Below, one piece after another: positions 3,450-21,511 of a stretch of DNA of 29,271 bases. The stretch's first letter is position 1, and each line of letters begins with the position of its first letter. The notes beneath the pieces were generated by a model. It was not told the DNA's origin. It searched no databases and saw only the letters and a program-made list of their open reading frames with translations. The stretch lies in the IMG/VR virus record IMGVR_UViG_3300028388_002866, positions 1 to 29,271 of that record. One strand, 5' to 3'. The stretch is from a virus. Both the position numbers and the translations under genes were made by a program.

Positions 3450-6400
3450 ATGAAGATTTTTCAAATGGTGTATGATTTATGGAAAGCGGCAAATCATAAA
3501 TATGATAGACGAATACCCTATACGGACTCACAAGGACGCCGGCGCTATAAATACTATTACAAAAAAAAGCACTTGCACGGACGAGGAATGGGAGCCGTTG
3601 AGGACATAATGGTAGGTTCATCTTATGAATACACGGGGAAGAACGGACAGCGGGGCCATGTTCATGTAACAAGCACAAAAAACGGCGTCACGGTAAAGCA
3701 TGACGAAACAGGCGAAGTCTTTACATTTAGCGATAAGAAGAAATTTAGCGAATGGATAAAACGGCACCATGCGGAGGCAATAAAAGAATCAAAAAGGGAG
3801 CTTTTAGAACGCATTAGACGAGAACGAAAACAAGGCAGTATTAGAATCAAGTTAAGTGAACGCCGAGCGGCTTATCTAGGGCTAGAGGTCCCGAAATGGG
3901 AAAAAGACGCCAGACAAGGTTTAATAAAGGATATAAATGACTTTAGTCACCTTAGGTACAGAATAGTATTAAAGGACAAAGCCGGCAGGAATATGCCTAA
4001 ATGGGTTACACAAGAAACCGCCGAACAAATAGTAAAATCACAAACCACAACTTGGAACGAGCTAGAAGAAAAAAAGGTACGATACAAAAAAGACAATCAA
4101 TGGCTTGAACCCAAAGAGGAAACATACAGAGAACATGAGGTCCACTTAAAATCATTTAATTATAGCTTTGAAATACCACACGGCGCAATTCATCCAAGAG
4201 ACTTTGATAATCATAGAGAAATTAAAGTATGGGTACGGGCTAAAGGTGCGGACAAATGGCGGACATTATATGACGCAGAAAGCCCCGACTTACTTTTAAA
4301 TAGCCGCTTTTCATCTTATGACCATAGATACAATGCACACGGGCTAAAAAAGGCGCATCATCACTTTTTAATGGTTGAGGGAAAAAAAGACATCACCAGC
4401 GTAGGGACGCCTAATTGGAAAACATTAATTTATCATGCAGAAGAACATGGCTTAGAGCTTATTTTTGCTGATTCAGAAACAAGGATATTTGATAGCCGAG
4501 GGACTAAAGAGGGCGTGTCTTTAAGCGCCGGCTTACCGCCTAATTTTCTTGCACTAGACTTGTCGAAGTTTGACTTTGAGATAGAGAGTCGAGGAAATTG
4601 GACCAATTATATGCTAAATGAAAATCCCGATTTACGGGAACTTGGATTCTTTGATGCACTTGGCAAAAACGAAAGCAATCGAAACTTTATATTTGGATTA
4701 ATTGCTAGAGCGTCAAAGGGGGACCGGTTAGGCGAGGGCGCAAGACAAAAACTTGCTAAACCTATATCACGCCTTGCGAATTGGTGGGCCGGTTTAAATG
4801 ATGATGAACGAGAAAAGTTTTATTATAACTATCTCAATTTAGAAGAACAGTTTACCGGCACACTACGGCACCCCTTACATGAAAATGCTCAGCTAGAAAT
4901 CCCCGACGGTATGGAGAAGATGAAACAAAAAGGTTGGAGTTTTCACGAATACCAAAAGAAAGCAATCAATTTTGCAATCTCAAAACCCCGTGTCGTCTGG
5001 GCTATGGAAATGGGGCTAGGAAAAACTTTAAGTGCTTTAGGGCTGTACAAGCATTTAAAAGCTAAAAAAGAGTCAAATAGAATGATTGTAACAGCCCCTT
5101 TAAGTGCACATGGGTCTTGGATAGAGCATTTAGGAGGCTTGAGTGATGTTAAATATGAAGTATTATCCGGCGCATCTAAAAAGAAAAGACTTGCAGCCTA
5201 TGAGAAGTTTAAAAACGGGGAAATTGATGTTTTAGTAATCAACCCCGAAACAATAAGAAAGCCAAAGCCCAACGCTAAAAGCAAAGCGGGCGACTTTGCA
5301 CATATTACGCAGCTAGTTGATCAAGACACTTTATTTATTGCGGACGAGGTTCATAAATACAAGGCTGATAGCTCACAAGGCTTAGCATTTGGAGAATTAA
5401 GCGCCCAAGCGGGGCGGGTAGTAGGCATGACGGGGACCCCTAAACCTAACAAGCCTATTGATTTCTATAATATAATGGCAAGAGTAAACCCTAATTGGGA
5501 CATTAGCCAAGAGGACTTTGAGGACCGTTATTGTTTATCAGTATCAGAAGTAGTCCCTACTAGGTACGGTTCAAAGACAATAAAAACACCGGTCACATTC
5601 AACCCCGCAAGACTAAATGAATTTCATCATTTAAACGCTGAAATGCTATTTGTCAGATCTACAAACGACCCCGATGCAAAGCTAGACTTACCGAATAGAA
5701 TTGATCTTGCACCAGCTTTAAATCTTGATGACACACAAACTGAATTAATCACGGTGCTAGGCCCACTTTGTGAAGCGAAAGCAATGGCAAGACGCTACAT
5801 GGGGCACCCCGAACCGGAAAGACTACCGCCACAATTTAGAAATGCTTTTAACAGAACAGATAGCTTGAATACGGACATGGTACAAAGCTTAGAGAATCCA
5901 AGCTATTTCAAAGAAATAATGAAATCCGACCCCGAAAGAGCCCAAGAAATACTAGCATGGAGCATGGCTGTTTCCGGCATGGATAGCTTGGCAATTAGAC
6001 TTGATCAAATAGCCGTAGACCCCGCCGCTTGCAGCGCCGAAACTAAAGCATTATTTGAAATCTATGACTCCGAATATGAAACGCCTAAAATGAGTGTTAT
6101 TGCAGATGCAACAGCGGAGCACTTAGAAACCAACCCCGAAACAGGGGCAGTCTTATTTTGTGAGTATGTGGGCGGATTAAGAGAGGCCAAAGAAGCACTT
6201 GTCAAAAGGGGCATCCCAGCAGAACAGATTGAGCTTTATTACGGGGCCGTTAGCTCAAAAAAGCGGCGAGAGATCGAACAAAGACTAAATGAGGGTGAAA
6301 TAAAAGTAATCTTAGGGCAGACGAAAGCGCTAGAAACAGGGGCCAATTTACAGAAGCGGGCCAATTTTGTTGCACATTTAAATACACCGTGGGCGCCAGA

Positions 6401-7067
6401 TACCTTGACACAATCAACCGCGCGAGTTTATCGACAGGGGCAAAGAAGAAAGACAACAATTCTAAGGCCAACAGGCTCAGAGATAGAGCGAGTAAAAGAT
6501 AGAGTGGTTACAAGGAAAATAAGCCAAGCAGCACAAGCAGCCGGAAGGGTAATGGTAGCCGATGAAGGCGCGATTAGAACAACAGCAGATGAACGCCGTC
6601 AATTAAACGACTTAAACAACATTGCAGAGCTATTGGGAATAAAAGAGCTCGAAAATCTAAACTTGGATGCACAAGGCGACGAAATAGAACAACGGGAACA
6701 GGTACAACAACCGCAACAAGAACAAGCAAGCGATATGCTAACAGCACAGAGCAGCCTTGAGGAAATAGCGCCAGCGTTTAAAACAAAGGCACAGAAAAAG
6801 AAACTAGGTAAAGGGGGAGAATGGTTTGCTAGTGCTTTTGAGAAAGAGTTTTTTAAATATATAATAGACGACCTCACACCCCCCCACGATAAAGCAGAAG
6901 CTTTTTATAGTAGAATGAAAAAGGTTGCAGAGCATAAAGGCGACTTAATTATAGAGGACCATACTAATAAGATCATTGACGCCGAGCAGAGCCTTACAAA
7001 TGCTTCATTTTGGGCGGGAGTTTATGCAACCGCTCACAGAGGACTATTAAAACTTAAAGGGAATTAA
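3450..7067 (+). CDS. Giant SNF2-type DEVH helicase with N-terminal shared module (polyvalent protein A)
   Basis: 1205 residues. Residues about 15-112 form the shared module also found in the two other giant proteins (HKYDRRIP, RRRYKYYYKKK, GHVHV, VKHDETGE). Residues about 160-440 are unrecognised and appear beta-rich. The helicase core runs about 495-1020: Walker A EMGLGKT at 520-526, DEVH at 632-635, TGTP at 661-664, motif V TKALETGANL at 958-967, motif VI QSTARVYRQGQ at 988-998. All motor motifs are intact, so ATP-driven DNA translocation is likely. A Gln-rich stretch (about 1080-1095) leads to a conserved-looking helical tail. Starts right after the portal stop with TGGAG at 3439-3443. SNF2 motors in large multidomain phage proteins next to portal/MuF genes fit injected anti-defence or DNA-handling factors; that role is inference. 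Confidence 0.85.
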   Translation: MKIFQMVYDLWKAANHKYDRRIPYTDSQGRRRYKYYYKKKHLHGRGMGAVEDIMVGSSYEYTGKNGQRGHVHVTSTKNGVTVKHDETGEVFTFSDKKKFSEWIKRHHAEAIKESKRELLERIRRERKQGSIRIKLSERRAAYLGLEVPKWEKDARQGLIKDINDFSHLRYRIVLKDKAGRNMPKWVTQETAEQIVKSQTTTWNELEEKKVRYKKDNQWLEPKEETYREHEVHLKSFNYSFEIPHGAIHPRDFDNHREIKVWVRAKGADKWRTLYDAESPDLLLNSRFSSYDHRYNAHGLKKAHHHFLMVEGKKDITSVGTPNWKTLIYHAEEHGLELIFADSETRIFDSRGTKEGVSLSAGLPPNFLALDLSKFDFEIESRGNWTNYMLNENPDLRELGFFDALGKNESNRNFIFGLIARASKGDRLGEGARQKLAKPISRLANWWAGLNDDEREKFYYNYLNLEEQFTGTLRHPLHENAQLEIPDGMEKMKQKGWSFHEYQKKAINFAISKPRVVWAMEMGLGKTLSALGLYKHLKAKKESNRMIVTAPLSAHGSWIEHLGGLSDVKYEVLSGASKKKRLAAYEKFKNGEIDVLVINPETIRKPKPNAKSKAGDFAHITQLVDQDTLFIADEVHKYKADSSQGLAFGELSAQAGRVVGMTGTPKPNKPIDFYNIMARVNPNWDISQEDFEDRYCLSVSEVVPTRYGSKTIKTPVTFNPARLNEFHHLNAEMLFVRSTNDPDAKLDLPNRIDLAPALNLDDTQTELITVLGPLCEAKAMARRYMGHPEPERLPPQFRNAFNRTDSLNTDMVQSLENPSYFKEIMKSDPERAQEILAWSMAVSGMDSLAIRLDQIAVDPAACSAETKALFEIYDSEYETPKMSVIADATAEHLETNPETGAVLFCEYVGGLREAKEALVKRGIPAEQIELYYGAVSSKKRREIEQRLNEGEIKVILGQTKALETGANLQKRANFVAHLNTPWAPDTLTQSTARVYRQGQRRKTTILRPTGSEIERVKDRVVTRKISQAAQAAGRVMVADEGAIRTTADERRQLNDLNNIAELLGIKELENLNLDAQGDEIEQREQVQQPQQEQASDMLTAQSSLEEIAPAFKTKAQKKKLGKGGEWFASAFEKEFFKYIIDDLTPPHDKAEAFYSRMKKVAEHKGDLIIEDHTNKIIDAEQSLTNASFWAGVYATAHRGLLKLKGN
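3492..3785 (+). repeat. Shared N-terminal module, copy 1 (divergent)
   Basis: Encodes residues 15-112 of the first helicase. Order of landmarks matches the other two copies: HKY-x-RRIP, a basic/aromatic YKYYYKKK string, an A-V-E/D-D stretch, GHVHV, VKHDETGE, then a basic helix ending in HHAEA. It is clearly homologous at protein level but not close at base level to copies 2 and 3. Confidence 0.75.
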
Positions 7068-7068
7068 G

Positions 7069-10000
7069 ATGAATGTACTTATCACAAACCTAGCGCCAAG
7101 CGGTACGAAAGTCGGGGATAAAACCGGACGGAAGCAACCAATAATTAAAGCGTTAAAGCATCTAACCGCCAGCGGGCAAAAAGTCCCTAAATGGCTTGCT
7201 AATGAAGCTTTAGATTACAGCATTAGCGAGCCGAGTCTATTTAGTGCGGAAGAAGTACAAGCTTGCATGGATAGCATATTAGACACTAAAGCGCCAAGTA
7301 TAGCGATCATGAATAAAGCAATTAAATCAAAACAAGATGTACCTATGAGCCGGCGACGTGCCAAGCTACTTGCTGAATATGCAAATAGACTATCTCAGAT
7401 GCTAGAGAACGCGCCAGATGACAAAGATCTTGCTGAATGGGTGCAGAGTAAGATTGACCGCGCAGCAAGCGCGATACAAAGTGCTTTTCATTATCTTGAG
7501 TATGACGAGCTAGAAAAGGGTGCAAGTCACAAATATATTAGACGTATACCAAAAGGTCGAGATAAACGAACAGGCCGCATGAGGTATGACTATGTTTACA
7601 AAGAGCATCACAGAGGCGGACTAAGGGCAGCCGTTGACGACTTAAAGGCCGGTGAAGCCTTTAAACTCACAGACCCCAAAAACGGGCAAAAAGGCCACTT
7701 TCATGTGAAAGGCGTTAAAGGAAATGTAGTTGTCGTTGAGCACGACGAAACAGGGCGCAGCGTCACCATGACAAAGGCTGAGTTTAAAGCGCTGCTTATG
7801 AAAGAACATGGTCAGGCGCTTAAAGACAACTTTCAAGCGAAAAAAGAAACCTATGAGCGGATGAAGCGAGAGAGCCCGAAAAGCATAGGGCTCAAAGCGG
7901 CATTTAACCGACTCAAAGCAGCAGCAGAAAAAGCGGGTGTAAAGGTCCCACAGGTACAAACCGCACCAGAACAAGCCTCTAAACAATCATCTTTATCAAA
8001 AGAGCAATTTAAAGAGAAGATAGAGGAATTAAAAAACCTTGAAGATAAGCTATCACTTTTTCTAAATACAATTTCAACTAAGCAATTCCTAACACCAGAA
8101 CAAGAAAAAAAGGTAATTGAAGAACAACAAGCAGAGATTGCAGAAAAAAGAAAACAATTAACAGAGGGCTTTAAAAGACCACAGAGTTTTGAGGAATTAG
8201 AAACAAGGCTAAGAAAGCTTTTACCAAAACTTAAAGGTTTAGACTACAACAGAATAACAGGCTACAAGCTCTACATAGATGAAGAAAATATTGCCTCTTT
8301 ACGTTCACAGATTAAAGACCTTGTCGGAACAGGTTTATACATATCACAAACAAACGAAAAAAATTACGGATTACAAATACAAAGAGCGTCGTATAAAGAC
8401 ATGACTCGATTACTGTTTGCTTTAGAAAATGAAGCAAAACAGAAAACCGCACCAGAACCCGCCGCCCGTGCTCAGTTGATTGATACAGCGAAACCAGAGC
8501 CAGCACAGCCCGCAAAGATTGATAACTTTGAGCTCTCAGAACATACTCACACTAAAACAGGCGTAAAGCTGTACACGGCAAAGCAAAAAGACCGCGTAGA
8601 CCGTGATGAATTTAAGCGACGTGTGCAGATAGCTAAGAAATACAAAGGGCGCTATGACAGCCGCTATGCAAAAGCGTACTTGTTCAAGAATCCAGAGGAC
8701 GCCCGCAAGTTTGCTTTAGAGGTAGAGGGCAAGCCGACCGACAGCCCAACAACGGCACCGGCTACCAACAACTTTGAGACTATGCCCGAAGCTGAAAGCG
8801 TAGATAACTTTGAGACTATGCCCGAAAGCAAGTTAAGCGACCCACACAGAGCCCGTAAAGAAAAAGTGTTCAAAGAGGTGACAACGGGTGAGCTCTACCA
8901 AACAAGAGCTCTTATCGACGAGAATGAAATAAGGGGCGTATATGAAAATCAAACACTAGCTTCTCTAAAAAGAAACCTAGAACCCGACCGCCTAGCCGCT
9001 GAAAGTGGAATCCAAGAAAGTGGCCTATTACAAGGTATAGAAAACGCTACTAGAATCTCACAGCTTGCAAAAGAGTATAAAGACTTTCAAGTAAGAACGG
9101 CAATCACTTTTGATAGAAAAGATAAAGCGGTTCTTAACGAGAGAGGAAACCCTAGAGGTATTTCAGACTTTATTAGGGAAAAACTAAATCTTAACTCTGT
9201 TAAAGACGTGAGAGCGCAAAAAGATGAAATCGAAAAGATTGCTAGTGAGCTACTAAAGCTAGGCGTAGACAATGCGGTAAAAAGAGCAAAAGAAACCGCA
9301 ACTAAGCGAAAAAACAAGATAAGCGCTGACGGTATAAGCATCTTTGATAACCACATAACAGAAGCCGAAAAGAGGTTAGAGTTTATTCAAACGTCTAACT
9401 TAAAAGACAGCAAGAAGTTAATCGACGGAATAAGAGAAGCGATAAAACTCACCAAAGAAGCAAAAGAAGTCTACAAGCAAAAAAGTGGAAACCTACTAGA
9501 CCAAGCAATTTCCGAGAACAGTAATCAAGCTATCATAAACGGCTTGTTAGAGAACTCGTCGACCCGCTTCCATTTCACAATAAATCCTAAAGGGTCAGCG
9601 GCAAAAAAGCTCACTGAAACTATTGTACAAAGCACCCTTAGCAATGTTTTAAAAGACGTTGCACAAAGCCAAGATAACTTTGAGACTATGCCAGAGGTTG
9701 AGCTACCGCCGAAAGGTGAACGAACCGTCGAGGATGCTAAGAAATGGTTCGGGGAACCTACTTACTTTGAGACAAAAATGCTAACAGGCACAAAGAGATA
9801 TTTTCAATATGAAAAAGACGGGCTAACAGTACGAGGCGGGCCCATAGGGGCTAAAGGCCAACTTTTAGCGGGCTCAAAAGTGTATACATCTATCAATCTT
9901 ACACCAGAGAATAGAAAAAAGATAAGTGGAGCACAATTCTCTCAGACAGAGTTAGGGGAATACAGGTCAATAGATGAAGCTCTAAGGGCAGCTATTAATT

Positions 10001-11223
10001 ACTTTGATAAAGACCCACAAAGTCAGTTTATAGGCTTTCAAAACAGGGATTTAGAAAGAGACAGACAAAGCGCCGCAAGGCGAATGGGAGTAAAATACTT
10101 ACCAGCAAGAACAGAGCTTATAGAAGCTAGTGATGTAGTAAGCGACAAAACAGACGGCTTAAAAGGCTCTTATTGGGATAGGAACGAGCGCCCCGAAATT
10201 AAGCGCTTATTGGATGAAACAGCTTCAAGAGGACGTTATCAATCTACCTTTCAAACAGGCTACACGCCAAGCCTATATGACTTAAAGCAAGTAGTACAAA
10301 GCGCCGATAAGTTAAAATTAGTTGACGCATGGAATCAGAACCAAGACACACATAATCGAATGGTAAGCTTTGCGGAAGAAGGAGATCTTGAGTCTTTAAA
10401 GAAGATACTATCAGACTTTAGAACAGACTACCTTTCTATGATAGCAAGGAACTCTTTACATAACGGATATGGAAAACGTGCCAAGCGAGTCATCAGAGAC
10501 AGCAAAACATCAGCACACCGAGAATTAGCAAAGCAAGAATACTTAGATTTTGAAAAAGAGTATGTAGCAAGAGCTAAACAGATCTTTGAAGAAACAAGAA
10601 CAGAAACAGACGCACAAATAATTCAACATCTAAAAGAGCGCTACTTTAGATACAAAGACCGCCCGTCCGAATTTAGTACAGCACCACGACTAACACCAAG
10701 TGAGAGAGCGCAAATTACAAAGCGTTTTGATGAAGCCGCCGCCAGAGCTCAATTAATTGAAGCCTCAGACCAAAGCGCCGAAAGTGCAGCGGTAAGGATT
10801 ACACAGGGCTTGACCGAGGAAAAGCTGACTGATTTCAGTAAAGACTTAACGGACGGTGATGTATCACAGATCTATGACCGCACGCGTTTTTTGACAGTGG
10901 CAAAAGAAAAGCCCACCAAGACATTAATGAGATCAAAGAAACAGCGAGCTATTGATAATGAATTGATTCTAATGCACCAGCGCTTAGACATTCACGCAAA
11001 AAGAAAATTTGGCAGCCTTGCGCCGCGCGTCACAGAAGGTTCTAGGTATCATCAAATGTTCAAAGAAGGAACAAGAGAGCCAGAGCATAGAGAGAAGATT
11101 AGGGCGAAGATCAAAAAGGACATTGAGAAACTGCACAATGTACTCAAGACCACAGCCAAGAGCGCTGAGAAATTAATTAATTATCGTGCAGCACTTTATA
11201 AGGCATTGAACCAAGCAGCTTAA
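7069..11223 (+). CDS. Giant multidomain protein with shared module and NFETMPE repeats (polyvalent protein B)
   Basis: 1384 residues. Residues 1-150 are a leading helical region with a KVPKWL motif. Residues 153-278 are the shared module (HKYIRRIPKG, YDYVYKEHHRGG, GHFHV, VEHDETGRS, ERMKRESPKSIGLKAA). Residues about 485-555 contain HTKTGVKLYTAKQKDRVDR followed by AKKYKGRYDSRYAKAYLFK, resembling a small alpha/beta domain recurrent in large phage and plasmid proteins. NFETMPE motifs lie at 568, 580 and 870; a partial DNFEL lies at 485. The rest (about 590-860 helical, 880-1384 mixed) is unrecognised. No nuclease, protease or toxin motif is evident. It is 2 nt from the helicase upstream (AAGGGA ribosome site), so it is co-expressed. 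Packaging or injection with DNA is inference from the architecture. Confidence 0.8.
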   Translation: MNVLITNLAPSGTKVGDKTGRKQPIIKALKHLTASGQKVPKWLANEALDYSISEPSLFSAEEVQACMDSILDTKAPSIAIMNKAIKSKQDVPMSRRRAKLLAEYANRLSQMLENAPDDKDLAEWVQSKIDRAASAIQSAFHYLEYDELEKGASHKYIRRIPKGRDKRTGRMRYDYVYKEHHRGGLRAAVDDLKAGEAFKLTDPKNGQKGHFHVKGVKGNVVVVEHDETGRSVTMTKAEFKALLMKEHGQALKDNFQAKKETYERMKRESPKSIGLKAAFNRLKAAAEKAGVKVPQVQTAPEQASKQSSLSKEQFKEKIEELKNLEDKLSLFLNTISTKQFLTPEQEKKVIEEQQAEIAEKRKQLTEGFKRPQSFEELETRLRKLLPKLKGLDYNRITGYKLYIDEENIASLRSQIKDLVGTGLYISQTNEKNYGLQIQRASYKDMTRLLFALENEAKQKTAPEPAARAQLIDTAKPEPAQPAKIDNFELSEHTHTKTGVKLYTAKQKDRVDRDEFKRRVQIAKKYKGRYDSRYAKAYLFKNPEDARKFALEVEGKPTDSPTTAPATNNFETMPEAESVDNFETMPESKLSDPHRARKEKVFKEVTTGELYQTRALIDENEIRGVYENQTLASLKRNLEPDRLAAESGIQESGLLQGIENATRISQLAKEYKDFQVRTAITFDRKDKAVLNERGNPRGISDFIREKLNLNSVKDVRAQKDEIEKIASELLKLGVDNAVKRAKETATKRKNKISADGISIFDNHITEAEKRLEFIQTSNLKDSKKLIDGIREAIKLTKEAKEVYKQKSGNLLDQAISENSNQAIINGLLENSSTRFHFTINPKGSAAKKLTETIVQSTLSNVLKDVAQSQDNFETMPEVELPPKGERTVEDAKKWFGEPTYFETKMLTGTKRYFQYEKDGLTVRGGPIGAKGQLLAGSKVYTSINLTPENRKKISGAQFSQTELGEYRSIDEALRAAINYFDKDPQSQFIGFQNRDLERDRQSAARRMGVKYLPARTELIEASDVVSDKTDGLKGSYWDRNERPEIKRLLDETASRGRYQSTFQTGYTPSLYDLKQVVQSADKLKLVDAWNQNQDTHNRMVSFAEEGDLESLKKILSDFRTDYLSMIARNSLHNGYGKRAKRVIRDSKTSAHRELAKQEYLDFEKEYVARAKQIFEETRTETDAQIIQHLKERYFRYKDRPSEFSTAPRLTPSERAQITKRFDEAAARAQLIEASDQSAESAAVRITQGLTEEKLTDFSKDLTDGDVSQIYDRTRFLTVAKEKPTKTLMRSKKQRAIDNELILMHQRLDIHAKRKFGSLAPRVTEGSRYHQMFKEGTREPEHREKIRAKIKKDIEKLHNVLKTTAKSAEKLINYRAALYKALNQAA
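7522..7902 (+). repeat. Shared module, copy 2
   Basis: Encodes about residues 152-278 of the 1384-residue protein. Bases 7522-7619 differ from 16395-16492 at only five positions by my alignment, all synonymous third-codon changes, so 33 consecutive residues are identical. Similarity continues, more weakly, to the ESPKSIGLKAA segment. Confidence 0.9.
8770..8826 (+). repeat. Two NFETMPE motif copies, 36 nt apart
   Basis: Copies at 8770-8790 and 8806-8826 (the second preceded by a GAT codon for Asp) encode NFETMPE. They use the same bases AACTTTGAGACTATGCC and then CGAA. They flank a short AESVD linker, after the Pro/Thr-rich PTTAPAT run, and look like inter-domain spacers. Confidence 0.9.
9673..9696 (+). 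repeat. DNFETMPE motif copy
   Basis: Same codons as the pair at 8770-8826, except that Pro-Glu is CCAGAG. It separates the helical middle from the C-terminal half of the 1384-residue protein. Confidence 0.9.
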
Positions 11224-11229
11224 TGTTCT

Positions 11230-11261
11230 ACTCTCACAAACTTAAAAAGTTTATTGAGAGT
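11230..11261 (+). promoter_or_regulatory. Long imperfect hairpin just before the dCMP deaminase start
   Basis: ACTCTCA (11230-11236) pairs with TGAGAGT (11255-11261) and, inside it, AAACTT (11238-11243) pairs with AAGTTT (11247-11252) around an AAA loop. The only mismatch is C11237 against A11253-T11254. The stem ends 5 nt before the ATG at 11267 and its 3' arm holds the only purine-rich ribosome-site candidate (GAGAGTGA). There is no T-run, so it is more likely a translation or RNA-processing element than a terminator. Confidence 0.55.
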
Positions 11262-11266
11262 GAAAT

Positions 11267-11719
11267 ATGAAAGCGAAACACATAAAAATAAGAGCAGCGC
11301 AGTGTGACCTCATAGCAAGCGCAAGTCCTTGTAGCCGGCGCAAAGTAGGCGCCTTGATCATTGAGCCGACGTCAAACTCAATTATCAGTGAAGGCTACAA
11401 CGGCACGCCGCGAGGAAGTGATAAATTTCTTTGTGGAGGCAGTACATGCCACCGAACAACAAACGCCATAAAAAGCGGGACTCAGAACGATGTAGGGTGC
11501 CACCATGCAGAGATCAACGCCATATTGAACGCGGCCCGAATAGGCGTATCAACCCAAGACAGTTGGCTATTCACGAATTGCGACCCTTGTTTAATGTGTG
11601 CTAAATCAATTCATCACGCGGGCATTTCAAAAGTCTACACAAAATTAACCAGCCAAAGCGCAGGGATTGTTTACCTTCAAGAAAACAAAATAAAAACAGT
11701 CTCGACAAGTGAGCTTTAA
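11267..11719 (+). CDS. Zinc-dependent deoxycytidylate (dCMP) deaminase
   Basis: 150 residues of the cytidine/deoxycytidylate deaminase family, which converts dCMP to dUMP for dTTP synthesis. Zinc and catalytic residues are plain: HAE at 80-82 (His80 ligand, Glu82 proton shuttle) and PCLMC at 107-111 (Cys108 and Cys111 ligands). EGYNGTPRGSDKF at 42-54 and further Cys/His residues (56, 61, 62, 78) resemble the second zinc site of phage T4-type and ComE-type dCMP deaminases. The length is right for the family. It sits directly before a ribonucleotide reductase, so the pair would boost deoxynucleotide supply during infection. The location inside the structural/polyvalent block is unusual. Confidence 0.9.
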   Translation: MKAKHIKIRAAQCDLIASASPCSRRKVGALIIEPTSNSIISEGYNGTPRGSDKFLCGGSTCHRTTNAIKSGTQNDVGCHHAEINAILNAARIGVSTQDSWLFTNCDPCLMCAKSIHHAGISKVYTKLTSQSAGIVYLQENKIKTVSTSEL

Positions 11720-11735
11720 TCTCATACTCTGAACA

Positions 11736-11759
11736 GCCCAACTAAAAAAAACGAAGGGC
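11736..11759 (+). promoter_or_regulatory. Weak GCCC/GGGC hairpin over the reductase ribosome site
   Basis: GCCC (11736-11739) can pair with GGGC (11756-11759). The 3' arm overlaps the AAGGG ribosome site (11754-11758) for the ATG at 11765. Only four base pairs, so it may be chance; listed because it repeats the layout seen at 1350-1381. Confidence 0.2.
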
Positions 11760-11764
11760 AAACG

Positions 11765-13738
11765 ATGATTGAGAACTTTGTATATAAATTAAAATATGCA
11801 CGTTATAACAAGGAAGAAAAGCGCCGTGAAAATTGGAACGAGAGCATTAAACGATACATGGAAATGCACCGGAAAAAGCTACCTTATGAAGCTGATTTAA
11901 TGGACGCAGTGGAGCAAGCGCTTATTGAAAAGCGCATTTTGCCGTCTATGCGAGGCTTACAGTTTGGCGGCGCCGGCATAGAGCGAAAGAACATGAGAAT
12001 GTACAATTGTACAAGCTCATATTGCGACCGCCCAAGATTTTTTGCGGAAGCACTATGGCTTCTACTTTGCGGTTCGGGTGTAGGTTTTTCAGTACAAAAA
12101 CATCATGTTGCGAAACTGCCAAGTCTCAGAGCGCCAAACGAAACTATGGCCTATATTGTTGAAGATTCAATTGAAGGTTGGGCGGATGCTGTAAATGTAC
12201 TAATTCATGCTTATATGGGAGAGAATTGCGAACCTCAGTTTGATTATTCTCAGATCAGACCAAAAGGGGCGCCGTTGTCCGTAGGGGGCAAGGCTCCGGG
12301 ATTTGAACCGCTGAAACAAGCAATTGAGCACATAAAGCCAATTCTAAAAAACGCAGTAGGCCGGAAGCTAAAGACAATTGAGGCTTTTGACATTGTGATG
12401 CACTTGGCAAACTGCACAATCACAGCAGGCACCCGTAGGAGTGCGACGATTGCTTTATTCTCATTAGATGATGATGAAATGATGAACGCAAAAACCGGCG
12501 ATTGGTTTGTAGAACATGGCCATAGAGCGCGCGCAAATATAAGCGCGGTTGTTTTACCAGACGCAGAAGAAGCGCAATTTAAAAGATTGTTTGAGAGCAC
12601 GCGCCAATACGGAGAACCGGCTTTTTTATTTTTAAATAGCTCAGAGCATGCCGTGAACCCGTGTGTCGAAATTGTTATGTGTCCGGTGCTGATTCGGGAC
12701 CCCGAAGGGGAAATTGTCAAAGAATACTCACTAGATCTAATTGACCCGCAGAACCGCGAGCAGTACGAAGCGCAAGGCTACCAATTCGAGAGCGGTTGGC
12801 AAACGTGCAATTTAACGTCAGTTAATGTAAGTGCAGCCCAAAACAAAAAAGATTTTATCGAGGCGGCGGCGCTTGCTGCGCAGCTTGGAACGTATCAAGC
12901 AAGCTATACGGAAACAGATTACTTAGGAGAGACAAGCAGGCTCATTATCGAGCGCGAGGCGCTTTTAGGCGTGAGCTTGTGCGGCGTGCTTTCTAAACCA
13001 GAGCTTGCCCTTAATCCGGACATCTTGACAGAGGCGGCTTTAACGGCAAAAGAGCGCAATAAAGCAACGGCTTTGAGAATTGACATTGAGCCAGCGGCGC
13101 GTGTGACATGTGTCAAGCCCGAAGGTACGGCAAGCCTTGTTCTAGGTACAAGCTCCGGTATACACCCCGCTCATGCTCAAAAATACCTCCGGCGAGTGCA
13201 AGTGAGCTCAGAAGAAGCAGTATTCCAACATTTCAGAGAAGTAAATCCACAGGCAATCGAAAAAAGCGTGTGGGGCTCAGATTATTGTTGTGTATTCCCC
13301 TTAGAAGGAAAAGGGATTACAAAAGCCGACCTAAGCGCAATTGAGCTTTTAGACAAAACAGCACTTGTCAAAAAACATTGGATAGACCCAGCAACAAGCC
13401 GTGATAGCCTAGAAGGGGCTACGCACAATGTAAGTTTAACAGTGACAATCAAGCCGGACGAGTGGGACAACGTTGCAGACTACCTATGGAAGAATAAAGA
13501 TAATTATACCGGCGTCAGTTTACTTTCAAATACCGGCGACTATGACTATCCGCAAGCGCCTCTCGTTGCAGTCTCAGAAAGTGGCGAGAGTGCAGAAGAA
13601 AAAGCAGCGTGGGAGTTATGGCAACACTTGAATAATACAATGAAAGTTGTAGACTACACGACAATGAACGAAGAAGAAGATTTAACAGTCCCCTTAGCGA
13701 TTCAAGTCTGTGCAGGGGGCGCTTGTGAATTAAAATAA
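11765..13738 (+). CDS. nrdJ: Adenosylcobalamin-dependent class II ribonucleotide reductase (monomeric RTPR type)
   Basis: 657 residues resembling the single-chain ribonucleoside-triphosphate reductase of Lactobacillus leichmannii (739 aa). It reduces ribonucleotides to deoxyribonucleotides using a cobalamin-generated thiyl radical, so it needs no oxygen or NrdB subunit. Visible residues: Cys82 in YNCTSS and Cys348 in QTCNLTSVN as the active-site disulphide pair; the NPCVEI motif with Asn298, Cys300 (thiyl radical) and Glu302; KPEGTASLVLGTSSG at 451-465 (phosphate binding); and the C-terminal shuttle pair in CAGGACELK. All are intact, so the enzyme should be active. It depends on host cobalamin. 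An AAGGG ribosome site precedes the start. It follows dCMP deaminase and precedes the second helicase by 7 nt. Confidence 0.92.
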   Translation: MIENFVYKLKYARYNKEEKRRENWNESIKRYMEMHRKKLPYEADLMDAVEQALIEKRILPSMRGLQFGGAGIERKNMRMYNCTSSYCDRPRFFAEALWLLLCGSGVGFSVQKHHVAKLPSLRAPNETMAYIVEDSIEGWADAVNVLIHAYMGENCEPQFDYSQIRPKGAPLSVGGKAPGFEPLKQAIEHIKPILKNAVGRKLKTIEAFDIVMHLANCTITAGTRRSATIALFSLDDDEMMNAKTGDWFVEHGHRARANISAVVLPDAEEAQFKRLFESTRQYGEPAFLFLNSSEHAVNPCVEIVMCPVLIRDPEGEIVKEYSLDLIDPQNREQYEAQGYQFESGWQTCNLTSVNVSAAQNKKDFIEAAALAAQLGTYQASYTETDYLGETSRLIIEREALLGVSLCGVLSKPELALNPDILTEAALTAKERNKATALRIDIEPAARVTCVKPEGTASLVLGTSSGIHPAHAQKYLRRVQVSSEEAVFQHFREVNPQAIEKSVWGSDYCCVFPLEGKGITKADLSAIELLDKTALVKKHWIDPATSRDSLEGATHNVSLTVTIKPDEWDNVADYLWKNKDNYTGVSLLSNTGDYDYPQAPLVAVSESGESAEEKAAWELWQHLNNTMKVVDYTTMNEEEDLTVPLAIQVCAGGACELK

Positions 13739-13745
13739 GGGATTT

Positions 13746-15698
13746 ATGCGAATCATTTCAATTGACCGGCCGCCGCTCTTTACTGCTCGTAACAAACCAG
13801 CATGGACAGAGCATTTTGACCTCTTAAAAAAATTAGGAGTGCTCAAAGCACTTGGGCCGCGTCACTTGAGAGATCGAACACTTATTTTATTAGATAAAGC
13901 CCAAAGCAACTCAAGTTTAACAGTGGGCCAAGAGAGCCGACTTAGTACAATTATTACAAGACTTACTGACTTGTGGTGCCAATGGTCAGACGATGAAAGA
14001 GAGTTGTTTTTTTACACGTTCTTAGACGTAGATCAGCAGCCCGAAATCAAAAGACCCGACATAGAAACACCAGCCTCTATCGAAATACCGGCAGACATGG
14101 AACGAATGACTTTGCGCGGTTGGACCCCGCACCTATATCAGCAAAGAGCTGTGCAGTTTGCCATTACAAATAGAAGATGTGTATTAGCGCTTGAAATGGG
14201 ACTAGGTAAAACTTTAATTGCACTTTTAGTCCTACACCATTTAAAAGCGCACAACGCATTTAAAACAATCATTACAGCGCCTAAAAGCGCCTTCGGTTCA
14301 TGGTCCGACCATTTGAAACTAAGCGAGTCTAAGATTTGCATTTTAGATAACATGAAGCCGGAGGATAGAGAACAAGTTTACACAGAGCTTTACACGGGTA
14401 AGATTGACGGTGTTATTGTAACTCCACAAACTTTTACAATTGATTTCAAATACTTTTTTAAAATAGCGACAGATCATAAGAGCTTGTTAATTGCAGATGA
14501 AGTCCACAAGTATAAAGGCGGCGGAAAAGCCGGCGTTGCATTTGAGAGAGTGAGCTCAAGAGCGGGAAGGGTCATAGGTTTAACAGGCACCCCGAAGCCG
14601 AACAAGGTTGAAGATTTTTATAAAATCATTTCAAGAGTCAGTCCCCAGAGTCTAGGGACCTATCAAGAATTTACAAGTGATTACACCTACCGGCAATTTG
14701 ATCAATTTATTTCTAATAAAGGGAATCAGTACATAGCCGGCGCACTTAGAGCGGATAGACTGAATCACTTATACAACCGTTTAAAAAATGTTCTCTTTGT
14801 GAGAGCAGCAACTGACCCCGATTGCCAATTAAACTTACCAAAGCGCAAAGACCTTGCACCGTACCTAGTCCCCGATCAAGGGCAAAAAGAAATGATGAAA
14901 AAGCTCATTGAATTACAAGCAGCGAGAGAGATTAATAGCTCGCTGTATAATGAAGCTTTGGAAGGGCAGCATGGATTTATTGCACAGGTCGCCGCGGAAG
15001 GGGCCACAGCCACGGCACAGGCACTAGGACAGCGCATTGAACAATTAATGATAACGCCCGCGATTTGGTCTGAAACATTTAATCGAAAATACCCCGATTA
15101 TGAGAGCCCTAAATTAAAACTCATTGCTGACAAAGTAAAAGCTTATATCGACCATGACACAAGCGCCGGTGCTGTTATATTTTGTGAATATATAGGCGGG
15201 CTCACGGCGATTTATAGAGCACTGATTAGGCGCGGACTACATAGAGAGCTTATTGATATATACAGTGGCAGCAGCACACGAAAAGCAAGAACGGACATGG
15301 AGCGCAAATTAAACGAGGGGGAAATAAAAGTTTTAATTGGTCAGACAAGAGCACTTGAAACAGGCGCAAACTTACAAAACCGCGCGGCCTATGTTGCACA
15401 CCTAAGCACCCCGTGGGCGCCAGATACTTTAACGCAATCAACCGCGCGAGTTTACAGGCAAGGTCAAAAAAAGCCGGTGACAGTTTTAAGACCAAGCTGC
15501 GGGCGATTAGAAGAAGCCAAAAACAAAGCACTGAGCCGAAAAATTATGCAGAGCGCCGGACTCACCGGTTTATTATTTGATGCAGACAGAGCAGTTTTAG
15601 ATACAAGCTCAGATGAACGAGTGCGCAGGGCGCAAGCTGATTTAATAGCGACAGGGGCATATAGTTATAGTATAATTAAAAAATTATGTGAGGTATAA
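13746..15698 (+). CDS. Second SNF2-type DEVH helicase, paralogue of the first
   Basis: 650 residues, homologous to about residues 395-1050 of the 1205-residue helicase but lacking its shared module, middle region and C-terminal tail. Motifs: Walker A EMGLGKT at 150-156, DEVHKYK from 251, TGTPKPNK from 280, a GQTRALETGANL segment, and QSTARVYRQGQ at 564-574. Stretches such as LNTPWAPDTLTQSTARVYRQ are almost the same in both (Ser for Asn here). The motor is intact. The homologous N-terminus (LKKLGVLKALG, then SDDERELFFYTFLD) shows the two proteins share a helical lead-in before the helicase core. TAAGGG before the ATG gives a ribosome site. The duplication flanks the dCMP deaminase/reductase pair. 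Confidence 0.85.
   Translation: MRIISIDRPPLFTARNKPAWTEHFDLLKKLGVLKALGPRHLRDRTLILLDKAQSNSSLTVGQESRLSTIITRLTDLWCQWSDDERELFFYTFLDVDQQPEIKRPDIETPASIEIPADMERMTLRGWTPHLYQQRAVQFAITNRRCVLALEMGLGKTLIALLVLHHLKAHNAFKTIITAPKSAFGSWSDHLKLSESKICILDNMKPEDREQVYTELYTGKIDGVIVTPQTFTIDFKYFFKIATDHKSLLIADEVHKYKGGGKAGVAFERVSSRAGRVIGLTGTPKPNKVEDFYKIISRVSPQSLGTYQEFTSDYTYRQFDQFISNKGNQYIAGALRADRLNHLYNRLKNVLFVRAATDPDCQLNLPKRKDLAPYLVPDQGQKEMMKKLIELQAAREINSSLYNEALEGQHGFIAQVAAEGATATAQALGQRIEQLMITPAIWSETFNRKYPDYESPKLKLIADKVKAYIDHDTSAGAVIFCEYIGGLTAIYRALIRRGLHRELIDIYSGSSTRKARTDMERKLNEGEIKVLIGQTRALETGANLQNRAAYVAHLSTPWAPDTLTQSTARVYRQGQKKPVTVLRPSCGRLEEAKNKALSRKIMQSAGLTGLLFDADRAVLDTSSDERVRRAQADLIATGAYSYSIIKKLCEV
15690..15693 (+). 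promoter_or_regulatory. GAGG ribosome site that sets the start at 15700
   Basis: GAGG lies 6 nt before the ATG at 15700. The frame also has a GTG at 15688, but that would overlap the ribosome site itself, so 15700 is preferred. Confidence 0.6.
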
Positions 15699-15699
15699 A

Positions 15700-16368
15700 A
15701 TGGCAAACAAACTACATTTTACAGGACAAAGGAACGCCCTATATGACCCCGTTCAACAGTGGGAAATGGTCCGGCAATTAATTATTCAAAAAGGACCGCG
15801 TAGACAATTTGTTATTAAGGGGGGCTCCGGTACTGTTTTGCTAGAACACGGAGCAAGCGTGACTGATTTAATTCACACGTTAAAAAAAGGACAACGTAAA
15901 AAGCCCAGAGGGGGCGAAGTTGACTTGATCAAAGAGCTTGCACAGCAAATGAGCCAAGTCCACACAACGCGAGTTAATACTATGCTCAAGAGCATTGACG
16001 ACTTACTCGGAGAGCCTATAAAAAAAGGGTACACACCGCCGGCAGACGTCGCAAGAGCAGCCGCAAGAGGTCTTGAGCTAAGACGGAAGCACAAGCGCGG
16101 CGGACTTGATGTAAAACAAGCAGCCAAACATGGTATAGGGAGCGGCGTCCAAAGAGCCGTCAACTTGAAAAATAGAGATGAAATAAGCGCTAAGACTGTT
16201 AAGCGCATGAAAAGTTTTTTTGCACGTCATAGAAAAAACAAAAGTGGTAAAATGCCAGACGGCACACCTAGCGCCGGCGCGATTGCTTGGCTCTTATGGG
16301 GCGGAGATGCCGGAGACCGGTGGAGTAAAAAAGTAGTGGCGCAACTAGAGAAGAAGGGAAAAAAATGA
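15700..16368 (+). CDS. Phage protein with C-terminal SAGxIAWxLWGGDAG domain
   Basis: 222 residues. The N-terminal ~75 residues (MANKLHFTGQRN...) are unrecognised. Residues about 110-212 carry a domain I know from many phage virion-associated proteins: YTPPADVARAAARGLELRRK, NRDEISAKTVKRMKSFFARH, then SAGAIAWLLWGGDAGDRW and a final Ser-Lys. Its biochemical role is not established to my knowledge. It is often fused to or encoded beside head proteases and portals, which fits this position. The protein is very basic, which would suit nucleic-acid contact. One base separates it from the helicase stop, and it overlaps the next gene by 4 nt (ATGA), so all three are coupled. Confidence 0.75.
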   Translation: MANKLHFTGQRNALYDPVQQWEMVRQLIIQKGPRRQFVIKGGSGTVLLEHGASVTDLIHTLKKGQRKKPRGGEVDLIKELAQQMSQVHTTRVNTMLKSIDDLLGEPIKKGYTPPADVARAAARGLELRRKHKRGGLDVKQAAKHGIGSGVQRAVNLKNRDEISAKTVKRMKSFFARHRKNKSGKMPDGTPSAGAIAWLLWGGDAGDRWSKKVVAQLEKKGKK

Positions 16369-19244
16369 GCACTGTATTAGATCTATTAAAAGCGGCAAGT
16401 CATAAATATATTAGACGTATACCGAAGGGCCGAGATAAACGAACAGGCCGCATGAGGTATGATTATGTTTACAAAGAGCATCACAGAGGCGGTATTTTAT
16501 CAGCTGTCGAAGATGTGGAAGCCGGCGCAGCGTTTAAACTACCCGACCCAAAAAGCGGGCAAGACGGACATTTCCATGTTGAAGCAGTTAAAGGGGATAA
16601 AATCACAGTAAAACATGATGAAACAGAGCGTAGCGTCACGATGACTAAGGCTGAGTTTAAAGCACTGCTTCAGAGGGAACACGGACAAGCGCTAAAAGAA
16701 ACCGCAAAGAAGCGCCGTGAGACTTACGAGCGCATGAAGCGAGAGAGCCCTAAAAGCATAGGGCTCAAAGCGGCTAAAAACCGAGCAGAACAACTTGAAC
16801 GTATGGCGGGTGTAGATAAGGTAGAAGAACCAGAAGAAGACCCCGAAAAAAAGATCAAACGCCTAAAGACTTTTATTGAGTATGCAAACAAAGTCCAACA
16901 CTTTATTTTAGACAATAAAGCAATGGACCATAGAGGAGCTAAAAGAGCTTTAGACCTTATCAGTGAGAGGTATCTTAGCGACGATTTCCGAAATATATTT
17001 ACTTACGATCAAGTCTTAGCAATGAGGCCCCCCGCCCAAAAGATTGACCTCGGAAAAATTATAAAGGATTCAGAAAAAAAGCTTATACAAACAGAAAACA
17101 AACTAAAAGCGGCAAAGAAAAAAGAAGCTAAGAGCGCCGATAACTTTGAGACTATGCCAGAGTCAAAAGAGCTCTCGAAAAAAGAAAAGGTTTTAGCTAA
17201 TCAAATCGAAGCCAGCGCAAAGAAAAACCTAGATTTCCTACAAAGAATCATTAAAACAAACAGGCGGGAATCTAACGAATATAGATTTAACAAAGCACTA
17301 AAAGCGGCCACTGAGAGAATCTTTTATGAGGTTGCAAAAACAGTAGGGTTAGATGAAGACTATTTATACTTTGCTAAGCGTACTCCATCTTTTTTACATA
17401 TAGATAAATCTCAAAATGCAGACTTTTTTAACAGCATATATGCGATTTATAACGGTGATACTAATGCGGAAAATGAAAACCTAGAAGTATACCACAAGAT
17501 CATAGAAAAATTAGTTGACCATACCGCCATGAACAGAAGCGGCGGCGGCGTGACGGCGGAAGAAAGACGCAACTTTAAAAAGTTAAGCCGACGATTCAAA
17601 GCCCAAGAAGATCTTATTTCTAAAAAGCTACTAAAACCGAAAAAAGAAGCTAAGAGTAAAGAGAACTTTGAGACTATGCCAGAGTCAAAAGAGCCCGCTC
17701 AAGAGCCCAAAGTACCAAGTAAGGCACAGCTAACAGACTTATTAAGTCAAATGAGCGATATATTAAAAGCCAAGCCGGAACTCAGAAACGACCCTAGAAT
17801 CGTTGGCCTATTCGGCACAGAGAGCAAGCCAACTGTTAATACAGACAAGCGCAATTCTGAAATAATGATTACCTTAGACGGCAAGCCGCAAAAGGGGAAA
17901 GTGAAATATAGAATCGTTGAAGCAGGTGACGCGATAGCCTCGCATGAGCCAATAGGATTTGGCCGGCGTGAAGATTACCCAGAAGGGATTCAAGAACGCA
18001 AGTATCACAGCGACAAAGCGGAAATGATGAAAGTGATTAGAAACGCACAGCAATTTGACCCCGCTTATTTAATCAATACAAATCCCGACGCGACCAACGG
18101 CCCGCCGGTAATGACGCCAGAAGGCATTGTACTTGGCGGAAATAGCCGAGTAATGAGCACGCAACGGGTCTATGCAAATCACCCAGAGAGCGCAGAACAA
18201 TATAAAGAGTTTCTGAAAAAGCAAGCAGACACATTTGGATTCGACCCTAACGAGGTTTCTAAATTCAAAGCGCCTTTACTAGTCCGAGAATACGAACCGA
18301 AAAAAGACACGAAAGACCATTTGGCAAAGCTAGTCAGAACCTTGAATGAGACAAAGACGCAAGGCATAGATGAAAGGCAATTAGGACTTGCAACGGCTGT
18401 TAAGATTAGGGACGGGCGGACACTAGGCGCTTTGAAAACATCACTTGCAGAGAGCTCATTTAACAACGTAGAAAACTTAATGACAAAACCTTCACCGGCA
18501 CTTGATAGATTTAAAGAAGCGCTTTTTGCGGACGGTGTACTTACAAATGAAAATATGAACGAGATGCTAAGACAAGCAGACGGCACATTCACCGGACGCG
18601 GACGCGATTTTATTAAGTCCATGTTAGTGGGTTATGTGGTCCGAGATAGTGATCTGTTAGAAGGTTTGAGCACAAGCACAATTAATCACTTGTCAACAGC
18701 GATCAGTAAGCTTTCAAGCGCCGGTATTAATGATCATGCACAGAAAGCCCTGCAAGATGCGATTGAAGTATATCATCATGCAGTAGCGCGGGACCGATTA
18801 AAGCGCGGTATGACGCCACAAGCCCGCAATGAAAATATAAATGATATAATGCTCTCAGAACGTGAGCTATTTAATACAGAGCCGAAAGACGGTGAGACAG
18901 AAGAACAGAAAGCCCAGCGAGAAAAACAAGCCCGATTTGCAAAGACCAAAGAGCGCGTAAGTAAGGACCCCCTTGCAAGCTCATTCTTAAAGATCTTAAC
19001 TTTAAGTGTGGGAACCCGCAAATTAAGCGAACAAATGGACAAGTTTTTAAAATTGACCGAAGATACAGGCGTTATTGACATGTTCGGAGGGAGCTCTCGC
19101 GTTTCATTTGATGATGCTGCAAGAAAGCTATCAAAGGACCTTGCGCGGGACTTTGGAATAGAAGATCAATTATATGAGATTAAAAAGAGTCTTGCGCTTC
19201 TTAATTTCTACAAAGGTTTCTTAGATGCTAGTCTTAGACGCTGA
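16365..19244 (+). CDS. Giant protein with shared module, NFETMPE repeats and DdrB/ParB-like domain (polyvalent protein C)
   Basis: 959 residues. Residues 12-137 are the shared module. Residues about 150-490 are helical linker with NFETMPE motifs at 260 and 434. Residues about 495-720 resemble the DdrB-like ParB superfamily domain: INTNPDATNGPPVMTPEG, then IVLGGNSRVMSTQRV (GGNSR at 591-595, the ParB-type nucleotide-binding arginine motif), followed by a VRTLNETKTQGIDERQLGLA stretch. The C-terminal ~230 residues are helical and unrecognised. DdrB/ParB domains recur in phage and conjugative-element polyvalent proteins and may bind or cleave DNA/nucleotides. An AAGGGA ribosome site precedes the ATG. 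It ends 20 nt inside the MuF gene, tying it to head assembly. Entry into the virion is inference. Confidence 0.82.
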   Translation: MSTVLDLLKAASHKYIRRIPKGRDKRTGRMRYDYVYKEHHRGGILSAVEDVEAGAAFKLPDPKSGQDGHFHVEAVKGDKITVKHDETERSVTMTKAEFKALLQREHGQALKETAKKRRETYERMKRESPKSIGLKAAKNRAEQLERMAGVDKVEEPEEDPEKKIKRLKTFIEYANKVQHFILDNKAMDHRGAKRALDLISERYLSDDFRNIFTYDQVLAMRPPAQKIDLGKIIKDSEKKLIQTENKLKAAKKKEAKSADNFETMPESKELSKKEKVLANQIEASAKKNLDFLQRIIKTNRRESNEYRFNKALKAATERIFYEVAKTVGLDEDYLYFAKRTPSFLHIDKSQNADFFNSIYAIYNGDTNAENENLEVYHKIIEKLVDHTAMNRSGGGVTAEERRNFKKLSRRFKAQEDLISKKLLKPKKEAKSKENFETMPESKEPAQEPKVPSKAQLTDLLSQMSDILKAKPELRNDPRIVGLFGTESKPTVNTDKRNSEIMITLDGKPQKGKVKYRIVEAGDAIASHEPIGFGRREDYPEGIQERKYHSDKAEMMKVIRNAQQFDPAYLINTNPDATNGPPVMTPEGIVLGGNSRVMSTQRVYANHPESAEQYKEFLKKQADTFGFDPNEVSKFKAPLLVREYEPKKDTKDHLAKLVRTLNETKTQGIDERQLGLATAVKIRDGRTLGALKTSLAESSFNNVENLMTKPSPALDRFKEALFADGVLTNENMNEMLRQADGTFTGRGRDFIKSMLVGYVVRDSDLLEGLSTSTINHLSTAISKLSSAGINDHAQKALQDAIEVYHHAVARDRLKRGMTPQARNENINDIMLSERELFNTEPKDGETEEQKAQREKQARFAKTKERVSKDPLASSFLKILTLSVGTRKLSEQMDKFLKLTEDTGVIDMFGGSSRVSFDDAARKLSKDLARDFGIEDQLYEIKKSLALLNFYKGFLDASLRR
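16395..16775 (+). repeat. Shared module, copy 3
   Basis: Encodes about residues 11-137 of the 959-residue protein. Bases 16395-16492 are nearly identical to 7522-7619 (five synonymous differences). Here the module is at the extreme N-terminus, as in the first helicase, whereas in the 1384-residue protein it follows 150 other residues. Confidence 0.9.
17139..17162 (+). repeat. DNFETMPE motif copy
   Basis: Identical at base level to the copy at 9673-9696. It is followed by SKELSKKEK and preceded by a Lys/Ala-rich helix. Confidence 0.9.
17661..17684 (+). repeat. ENFETMPE motif copy
   Basis: Same bases as the copy at 17139-17162 except GAG for the first codon (GAT there). It precedes SKEPAQEPK, a Pro/Glu-rich linker leading to the DdrB-like part. 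Confidence 0.9.
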
Positions 19245-21501: not shown

Positions 21502-21505
21502 GGAG
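21501..21505 (+). promoter_or_regulatory. Strong ribosome site setting the capsid start at 21512
   Basis: AGGAG lies 6 nt before ATG 21512 and begins at the last base of the scaffold stop. It decides against the in-frame upstream ATG at 21452, which lies inside the scaffold gene and has no comparable site. Confidence 0.8.
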
Positions 21506-21511
21506 TTTATT

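Follow-up and report, generated by a model that had tools for sequence, protein, structure and literature searches.

Giant proteins sharing a small module between the portal and MuF genes of an uncultured tailed phage are candidate virion cargo

How giant proteins are selected for phage heads and exit through tails is the general question addressed here, and the closest described systems are the polyvalent proteins of Iyer et al. and the Dar proteins of phage P1. In the sections of Iyer et al. (PMC5512222) considered here, polyvalent proteins are large and multidomain, are encoded among late head genes with MuF genes nearby, and contain DdrB-like ParB and SWI2/SNF2 domains; a role as an NTP-dependent nuclease or in NTP sensing was proposed for the former, and translocation along double-stranded DNA for the SNF2 ATPases. 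The P1 Dar set consists of DarB, DdrB, DarA, Ulx, Hdf and DdrA. According to the relevant parts of PMC9024508, DdrB and DarB are detected as virion proteins of P1, and a reporter reaches the P1 head when it carries just the 30 N-terminal residues of DarB.

The window, that is, the whole stretch of DNA analyzed here, is a linear IMG/VR virus record of 29,271 bases, probably a fragment, in which the genes for an endolysin, the portal, a seven-gene block (A to G), a MuF protein, the protease, a protein in the scaffold position, the major capsid protein (MCP) and the sheath all lie on one strand. The phage is uncultured and tailed, and the genes for its giant proteins sit inside the head-building gene row. 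The initial annotation noted that nearly 16 kb separates the portal gene from the MuF gene, and both the coordinates and the gene list of this cassette hold:

2001..3449, + strand: portal, left border of the cassette (PF04860 1.3e-21; phrog_12 1.3e-48; SPO1 portal 39% identical)
3450..7067, + strand: A, 1205 aa, N-terminal module followed by SNF2 ATPase and helicase C (PF00176 5.9e-13; PF00271 1.8e-16)
7069..11223, + strand: B, 1384 aa, with module (module HMM; relatives in metagenomic contigs)
11267..11719, + strand: C, dCMP deaminase (PF00383 2.5e-20; HAE and CDPC present)
11765..13738, + strand: D, class II (B12-dependent) ribonucleotide reductase, RNR (phrog_367 2e-106; TIGR02505 7.2e-60; aligned to 1l1l)
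13746..15698, + strand: E, short SNF2 ATPase of 650 aa, without module (PF00176 1.3e-20)
15688..16368, + strand: F, GDAG-domain protein, SAGAIAWLLWGGDAG (phrog_2859 3.6e-14)
16365..19244, + strand: G, 959 aa, module, helical linker region, DdrB-like ParB domain and helical C-terminus (PF18763 1.4e-18; AF2 model)
19225..20232, + strand: MuF-like minor head protein, right border of the cassette (MuF-type models phrog_115, 3.7e-12, and Pfam VG15, 26.2 bits against a cut-off of 26; PF04233 below its cut-off at E 0.022)
20222..20923, + strand: head maturation protease (phrog_1028 1e-45)

The order is thus portal - A - B - dCMP deaminase - class II RNR - E - F - G - MuF, and the seven block genes are packed tightly: A starts at 3450, directly after the portal stop at 3449, the E/F, F/G and G/MuF pairs overlap, and the widest gap, between C and D, is 46 nt. 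Promoter-like and terminator-like sites are no more common than in shuffled sequences (23 vs 28.7 and 23 vs 25.5, respectively), so the block is probably transcribed together with the head genes.

The resemblance to polyvalent proteins that had been proposed for this block is supported by where the block lies, within the head operon, by its SNF2 and ddrB-ParB domains and by the MuF gene next to it, all of which fit the account of Iyer et al. 2017 (PMC5512222) in its sections considered here. The location is that of late virion genes, flanked by the portal and MuF genes and followed by those for the protease, MCP and sheath. A combines the module with SNF2 and G combines it with ddrB-ParB; in B, only the module was identified as a domain, and the rest of the protein is without a family match (no Pfam family above cut-off, none in PHROGs, nothing in NCBIfam at 0.1 and none in INPHARED at E 0.01). 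The cassette differs from the polyvalent proteins covered in those sections in that A, B and G have neither a methylase partner nor the HExxH signature of zincin metallopeptidases, and in that one module joins several separate proteins of a single phage. With the P1 Dar system, the window shares a DdrB-ParB protein, a contractile-tailed phage and an SNF2 gene close to the portal and protease genes (P1 ORFs 10-12 in the portion of the P1 description used), and DarB has an N-terminal capsid-targeting sequence. However, the Dar genes lie in two places, as far as that portion describes them, whereas the block is one gene row; no common N-terminal consensus is reported there for the Dar proteins, whereas A, B and G share the module; and the targeting sequences of T4 IPIII and P1 DarB are short and N-terminal, whereas the module has an N-terminal position in two of the three proteins, A and G, and an internal one in B. 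No counterpart of DarA or Hdf came to light in the window. A has SNF2 without a methylase match, and no DNA methylase signature was found in A, B or G (Pfam families; no NPPY-type motif seen), so we rejected an anti-restriction mechanism of the DarB type, with a methylase-helicase. A search of the window's own record for LPD3 (PF18798) was null, as it was for all control genomes.

G carries the domain that resembles P1 DdrB:

17892..18293, + strand: DdrB-like ParB domain of G, residues 510-643, with GGNSR at residue 591 (PF18763)

G scores 67.6 bits against the ddrB-ParB model PF18763 (cut-off 27.6). In the comparison of its ParB region with P1 DdrB, the tblastn matches at E 0.01 came from 27 records, among which are Punavirus P1 and its relatives, and an HMM built from relatives of G gave E 7.8e-33. 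R595 of GGNSR, invariant in 12 aligned sequences, would correspond to the conserved arginine of the ParB/Srx pocket. The mean pLDDT of the AF2 model of G is 62.9.

A, B and G have in common a module of approximately 135 residues:

3474..3869, + strand: module in A, residues 9-140 (iterated HMM, E 3e-34)
7507..7914, + strand: module in B, residues 147-282 (HMM, E 2.1e-52; 78% DNA identity with the G copy over 300 nt)
16380..16787, + strand: module in G, residues 6-141 (alignment; AF2 predicts a small beta barrel, then long helices)

That three proteins of the block share one module, as had been pointed out initially, was confirmed: A 1-150, B 139-300 and G 1-155 are mutually alignable, and the module recurs in relatives. 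It was detected in 16 of the 20 records searched, two of these matches being weak and partial (G016, E 4e-6; G018, E 7e-5), and an iterated module HMM run on the collected loci retrieved 52 ORFs, the window included and overlapping loci counted more than once. Apart from cut ORFs and one of 269 aa (L016), all of these encode large proteins. Across all collected loci other than the window and L109-L112, with overlapping loci counted repeatedly and cut ORFs included, the module is carried by 34 of 45 ParB ORFs and by 0/42 SNF2 (short-form HMM), 0/23 RNR, 0/21 portal, 0/57 MuF and 0/44 GDAG ORFs; no RNR, portal, MuF, protease or capsid protein was found to carry it. The position is not always N-terminal: the module starts at residue 147 in B, 256 in L008, 319 in L009 and 1169 in L005. 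In the AF2 model of the module (mean pLDDT 75.1, pTM 0.51), a small beta barrel is followed by long helices, and the predicted fold is SH3-like, a common small barrel. The best Foldseek match in the PDB was a designed SH3-like barrel (E 0.021). In the VIA search of the PDB, the best Z was 6.6, below the level that means much, with Tudor and TnsB tied, a generic result, and the similarity to the TraI translocation-signal domain 4l0j (Z 6.3, rmsd 2.4, 58 aligned) is likewise generic and tied with others. As a single-sequence tblastn query against INPHARED, the module gave no match at E 1; its weak PHROGs matches include 'internal virion protein' in 6 of 32 members (best E 0.0087, in the helical half), which we did not use as evidence.

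Given that DarB and DdrB are found in P1 virions and that the DarB N-terminus targets a protein to the head, A, B and G would, by analogy, be loaded into the prohead. We consider it fairly likely that the block combines virion cargo with passengers in a late cassette of the head operon, in which A, B and G are probably polyvalent proteins loaded into the virion and ejected with the DNA, and the module, judged by the P1 precedent, is the best candidate for a head-loading tag. Its role in prohead loading would be equivalent to that of the first 30 residues of DarB in P1. Having left the head together with the DNA, the tagged A, B and G would first become active in the newly infected cell, where the SNF2 part of A might move along the incoming DNA and the ParB-like domain of G might function in nucleotide sensing or as an NTP-dependent nuclease. 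Should the module prove to be a tag, cargo packaged by uncultured phages could be predicted from sequence alone.

The idea that all seven genes form one system had to be dropped: C, D and E lack the module and are recognizable enzymes of nucleotide metabolism or DNA translocases. D aligns to 1l1l in pieces and keeps the terminal CxGGAC pair (CAGGAC) and NPCVE, which we take to be catalytic residues. C, D and E are probably enzymes of the infected cell rather than cargo and would act later, on nucleotide pools, replication or transcription. Because they lie within the same gene row, position alone is no proof of packaging. The whole block might, then, encode ordinary infected-cell proteins that are co-transcribed with the head genes, none of them packaged. 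C, D and E are enzymes of exactly this kind, and in SPO1, a pair of RNR genes lies just upstream of the portal gene, without giants, which shows that this lineage does place metabolic genes close to head genes. Nevertheless, we regard this explanation as unlikely: the module is common to the giants and to large proteins that occupy the equivalent position in distant phages, proteins with DdrB-like ParB domains are virion proteins in P1 (in the relevant part of PMC9024508), and F is fused to the portal in two relatives.

Additional information comes from relatives of the window, which are metagenomic contigs, many of them cut, such that locus counts repeat some contigs. The G query yielded 17 loci, and those of sufficient extent show the arrangement portal-(A)-B-(C)-D-E-F-module protein(s)-MuF-protease-scaffold-MCP, with D directly after the portal in L007. 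The MCP query yielded 43 loci, partly on the same contigs as the G-query loci; 42 were tabulated, and 24 of these include a MuF gene plus an upstream ORF. Directly upstream of MuF, this ORF is a ParB protein in 22 loci, a module giant without a ParB hit in one (L083) and F in one (L077); L104 and L105 (MCP 42% identical) have neither a module nor a MuF match. Among close relatives, one to three module proteins precede MuF. At greater distances, a giant is still present near the portal, MuF or protease gene: a 110-kb phage (L112) has the order portal - 129 aa - 1678-aa giant (module plus ParB) - MuF, and in L008 and L009, a giant and an ORF of 449 or 94 aa lie between portal and MuF. At L060:9852-10337, a 161-aa ORF beside a giant matches the N-terminal part of the capsid HMM (E 6e-08, residues 11-99).

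No close relative was detected in INPHARED: the best portal among the matches listed is 41.3% identical, and the listed MCP matches are at most 29.5% identical. Pseudomonas phage Dolphis, an isolate with homologous MCP and portal, has a MuF-domain gene approximately 250 nt after the portal gene (HMM E 5.7e-07), in agreement with the initial premise that portal and MuF genes are normally neighbors; its order is portal, MuF-domain gene, 78-aa gene, protease, 212-aa gene and MCP, and there is no giant between portal and MCP. SPO1, with its Herelleviridae-like head, shares with the window the order of portal (39% identical), protease, scaffold, MCP, a protein annotated as 'tail fiber' and sheath, but within the 15.2-kb stretch examined, it has no MuF match and no giants, and the portal gene leads directly to the protease gene. 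Relative to Dolphis and SPO1, the block can hence be described as inserted, the term originally used; as a recent event, insertion does not stand, the block being conserved in the nearest relatives. In Thermus phage Cumys, an SNF2 protein of 1617 aa is encoded just ahead of the protease, without the module or the octapeptide described below.

These comparisons bear on whether the giants could be internal head or core proteins that build, size or load the head, as opposed to effectors for the next cell. In P1, DdrB is listed as helping DarB to be added to the capsid, and the determination of head size is assigned to DarA and Hdf (relevant sections of PMC9024508), and DarA-Hdf pairs line the inner capsid (PMC12810830, in the part consulted); moreover, the place of the giants between portal and MuF is conserved. 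However, in the stretches examined, the homologous heads of SPO1 and Dolphis come without such giants, even close relatives differ in which giants they have (in the number of module proteins and in the presence of A), and the ATPase motifs of A are intact. We accordingly rate a role in assembly as distinctly improbable and retain delivery of A, B and G as the preferred interpretation.

The GDAG-domain protein F is tied to the head by its fusions and by its context. In L015 and L017, the portal protein carries the F domain at its C-terminal side (829 and 866 aa), and the fusion gene is followed by MuF and then by a module protein. F matches 88 INPHARED records; in five that were inspected, the match lies upstream of the annotated MCP in all five and an annotated portal lies upstream in three. 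Most likely, therefore, the place of F is at the portal side of the head, where it would also work.

The two SNF2 genes of the cassette form a matched pair. E resembles the SNF2 part of A and carries the same motifs (GLGKT, DEVH and RVYRQGQ in A) but has no module, a relation that the initial annotation had not pointed out. A long and a short SNF2 gene are both present in 3 of the 20 records (the window, G002 and G004), the only ones with A; in all three, the module is on the long SNF2 and not on the short one, and the long one follows the portal. Two further records each gave two SNF2 matches, which belong to a single ORF (G008) or to fragments of the short gene (G007). In a tree of 16 SNF2 cores, the three A proteins stand apart from the E proteins with a support of 0.999. 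Such a pair, with and without the module in one operon, together with a short conserved joint, makes loading and processing separately testable. Between the window and the G002 phage (L109), A is 93% identical over 1200 residues, compared to 84% for the portal and 61% for B, which suggests recent exchange of A. At L016:2799-6824, both the RNR gene (two ORFs) and the short SNF2 gene (three ORFs) are interrupted, reflecting decay, insertion or sequence errors.

A second feature, shared by B and G and absent from the initial annotation, is an octapeptide, (D/N/E)NFETMPE, present in three copies in B and two in G:

8767..8790, + strand: NNFETMPE, B copy 1
8803..8826, + strand: DNFETMPE, B copy 2
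9673..9696, + strand: DNFETMPE, B copy 3
17139..17162, + strand: DNFETMPE, G copy 1 (low-confidence stretch of the model)
17661..17684, + strand: ENFETMPE, G copy 2 (low-confidence stretch of the model)

Both copies in G fall within AF2 stretches with pLDDT under 50. A near copy (at most 2 changes of 7) occurs in all 17 loci brought in by the G query, and coding DNA for exact DNFETMPE was found in 37 IMG/VR stretches and in none of the 84,980 prokaryote species genomes of the GTDB set (contigs under 3,000 bases excluded), where chance alone would give approximately 0.9 if base use were equal. The pattern DN[FWYLC]ETMP[ED] occurs in 40 contigs, within an ORF of at least 500 aa in 35 and within a cut ORF (214 or 341 aa) in two; the other three appear to be chance matches (L042, L061 and L064, the last not in frame in an ORF). 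Head genes are visible in the available DNA of 29 of the 40 contigs (29 of the 37 that remain once the three chance-like ones are set aside). After masking of the motif region, BLAST at E 1e-3 finds no similarity between three sets (45, 8 and 1) into which 54 distinct large proteins divide; all carry the octapeptide, the second and third sets having been found via the octapeptide itself. The 8-residue profile was built from sites with up to 2 changes, so its sharpness is partly a matter of construction. There was no octapeptide in the ten isolate regions scanned, and the MCP-survey contigs outside the motif scans mostly encode module proteins without it. The octapeptide is not mentioned in the sections of Iyer et al. 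(PMC5512222) considered here, and its letters found no match in the open-licence papers searched for both motif and cassette; the joining of segments by a repeated octapeptide, which giants of this kind often display, appears new to the literature searched.

The third codon positions vary: across 80 sites, Thr is encoded by ACG (31), ACT (30), ACC (13) and ACA (6), and Pro by CCA (30), CCC (23), CCT (16) and CCG (9). Since wobble positions differ between phages, selection acts on the peptide, and we rejected a DNA-level element; the five copies in the window are nearly identical in DNA, as expected of recent copies. Among 18 distinct module plus ParB proteins, the octapeptide lies between the two domains, in one or two copies, in 8 of 8 with a gap of 205-587 residues and in 0 of 10 with a gap of 155-180 residues (Mann-Whitney p 4.6e-5, which is not a true probability because the sequences are related). 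The octapeptide hence accompanies extra segments, as befits a joint rather than a loading signal; a loading signal was rejected outright because G proteins without the octapeptide keep both module and ParB domain. Conversely, motif-bearing giants without a module match exist in the same head context (e.g., L019, L021, L060 and L062), which means that not every such giant can be tagged by the module. In 17.5% of cases, a homology breakpoint lies no more than 15 residues from an octapeptide, compared to 5.5% for random positions (1056 breakpoints, which are not independent, and linkers end alignments anyway). Taken at the sequence level, these patterns point to a joint that accompanies segments added between module and cargo.

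A more specific function that we weighed is that of a cleavage site of the phage head protease, which would split packaged giants into domains, as in a polyprotein. The location of the copies in linkers between segments, the enrichment of breakpoints around them and the presence of head genes of the same type in most contigs with the octapeptide in a giant or cut ORF are compatible with cleavage, and the SPN3US head protease cuts after AXE (relevant part of PMC10052503), so that a short motif ending in E is conceivable as a site. Still, this function appears rather doubtful: some G proteins have no octapeptide at all, docking of a partner or a mere linker spread by recombination would fit equally well, and a likelier protease-related site is available in the segment GYQTP...LVPQQL, which is common to the window protease and capsid protein, neither of which has the octapeptide. 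Extending the preferred interpretation of the cassette as virion cargo with passengers, one can envisage a modular system in which the SH3-like module would mark the protein, the cargo would be strung behind it and the DNFETMPE joints would be cut or bound, such that several proteins are delivered, A being the injected version and E the in-cell version of the SNF2 enzyme; we offer this as a speculative and somewhat unlikely elaboration.

The 234/239-aa family at L042:4468-5172 and L061:1447-2166 contains DNFETMP(E/D) in an unrelated context, in L042 next to DNA polymerase and sugar-modification genes, and looks like a chance resemblance. The GYQTP...LVPQQL segment lies in the C-terminal part of the protease (20642-20821) and the N-terminal part of the MCP (21512-21721), is also present in relatives and might serve both proteins in cleavage or targeting. 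For the capsid gene, the longest ORF (21452-22963) opens with TTG at 21452, and the relatives start at the equivalent of 21512, the likelier start.
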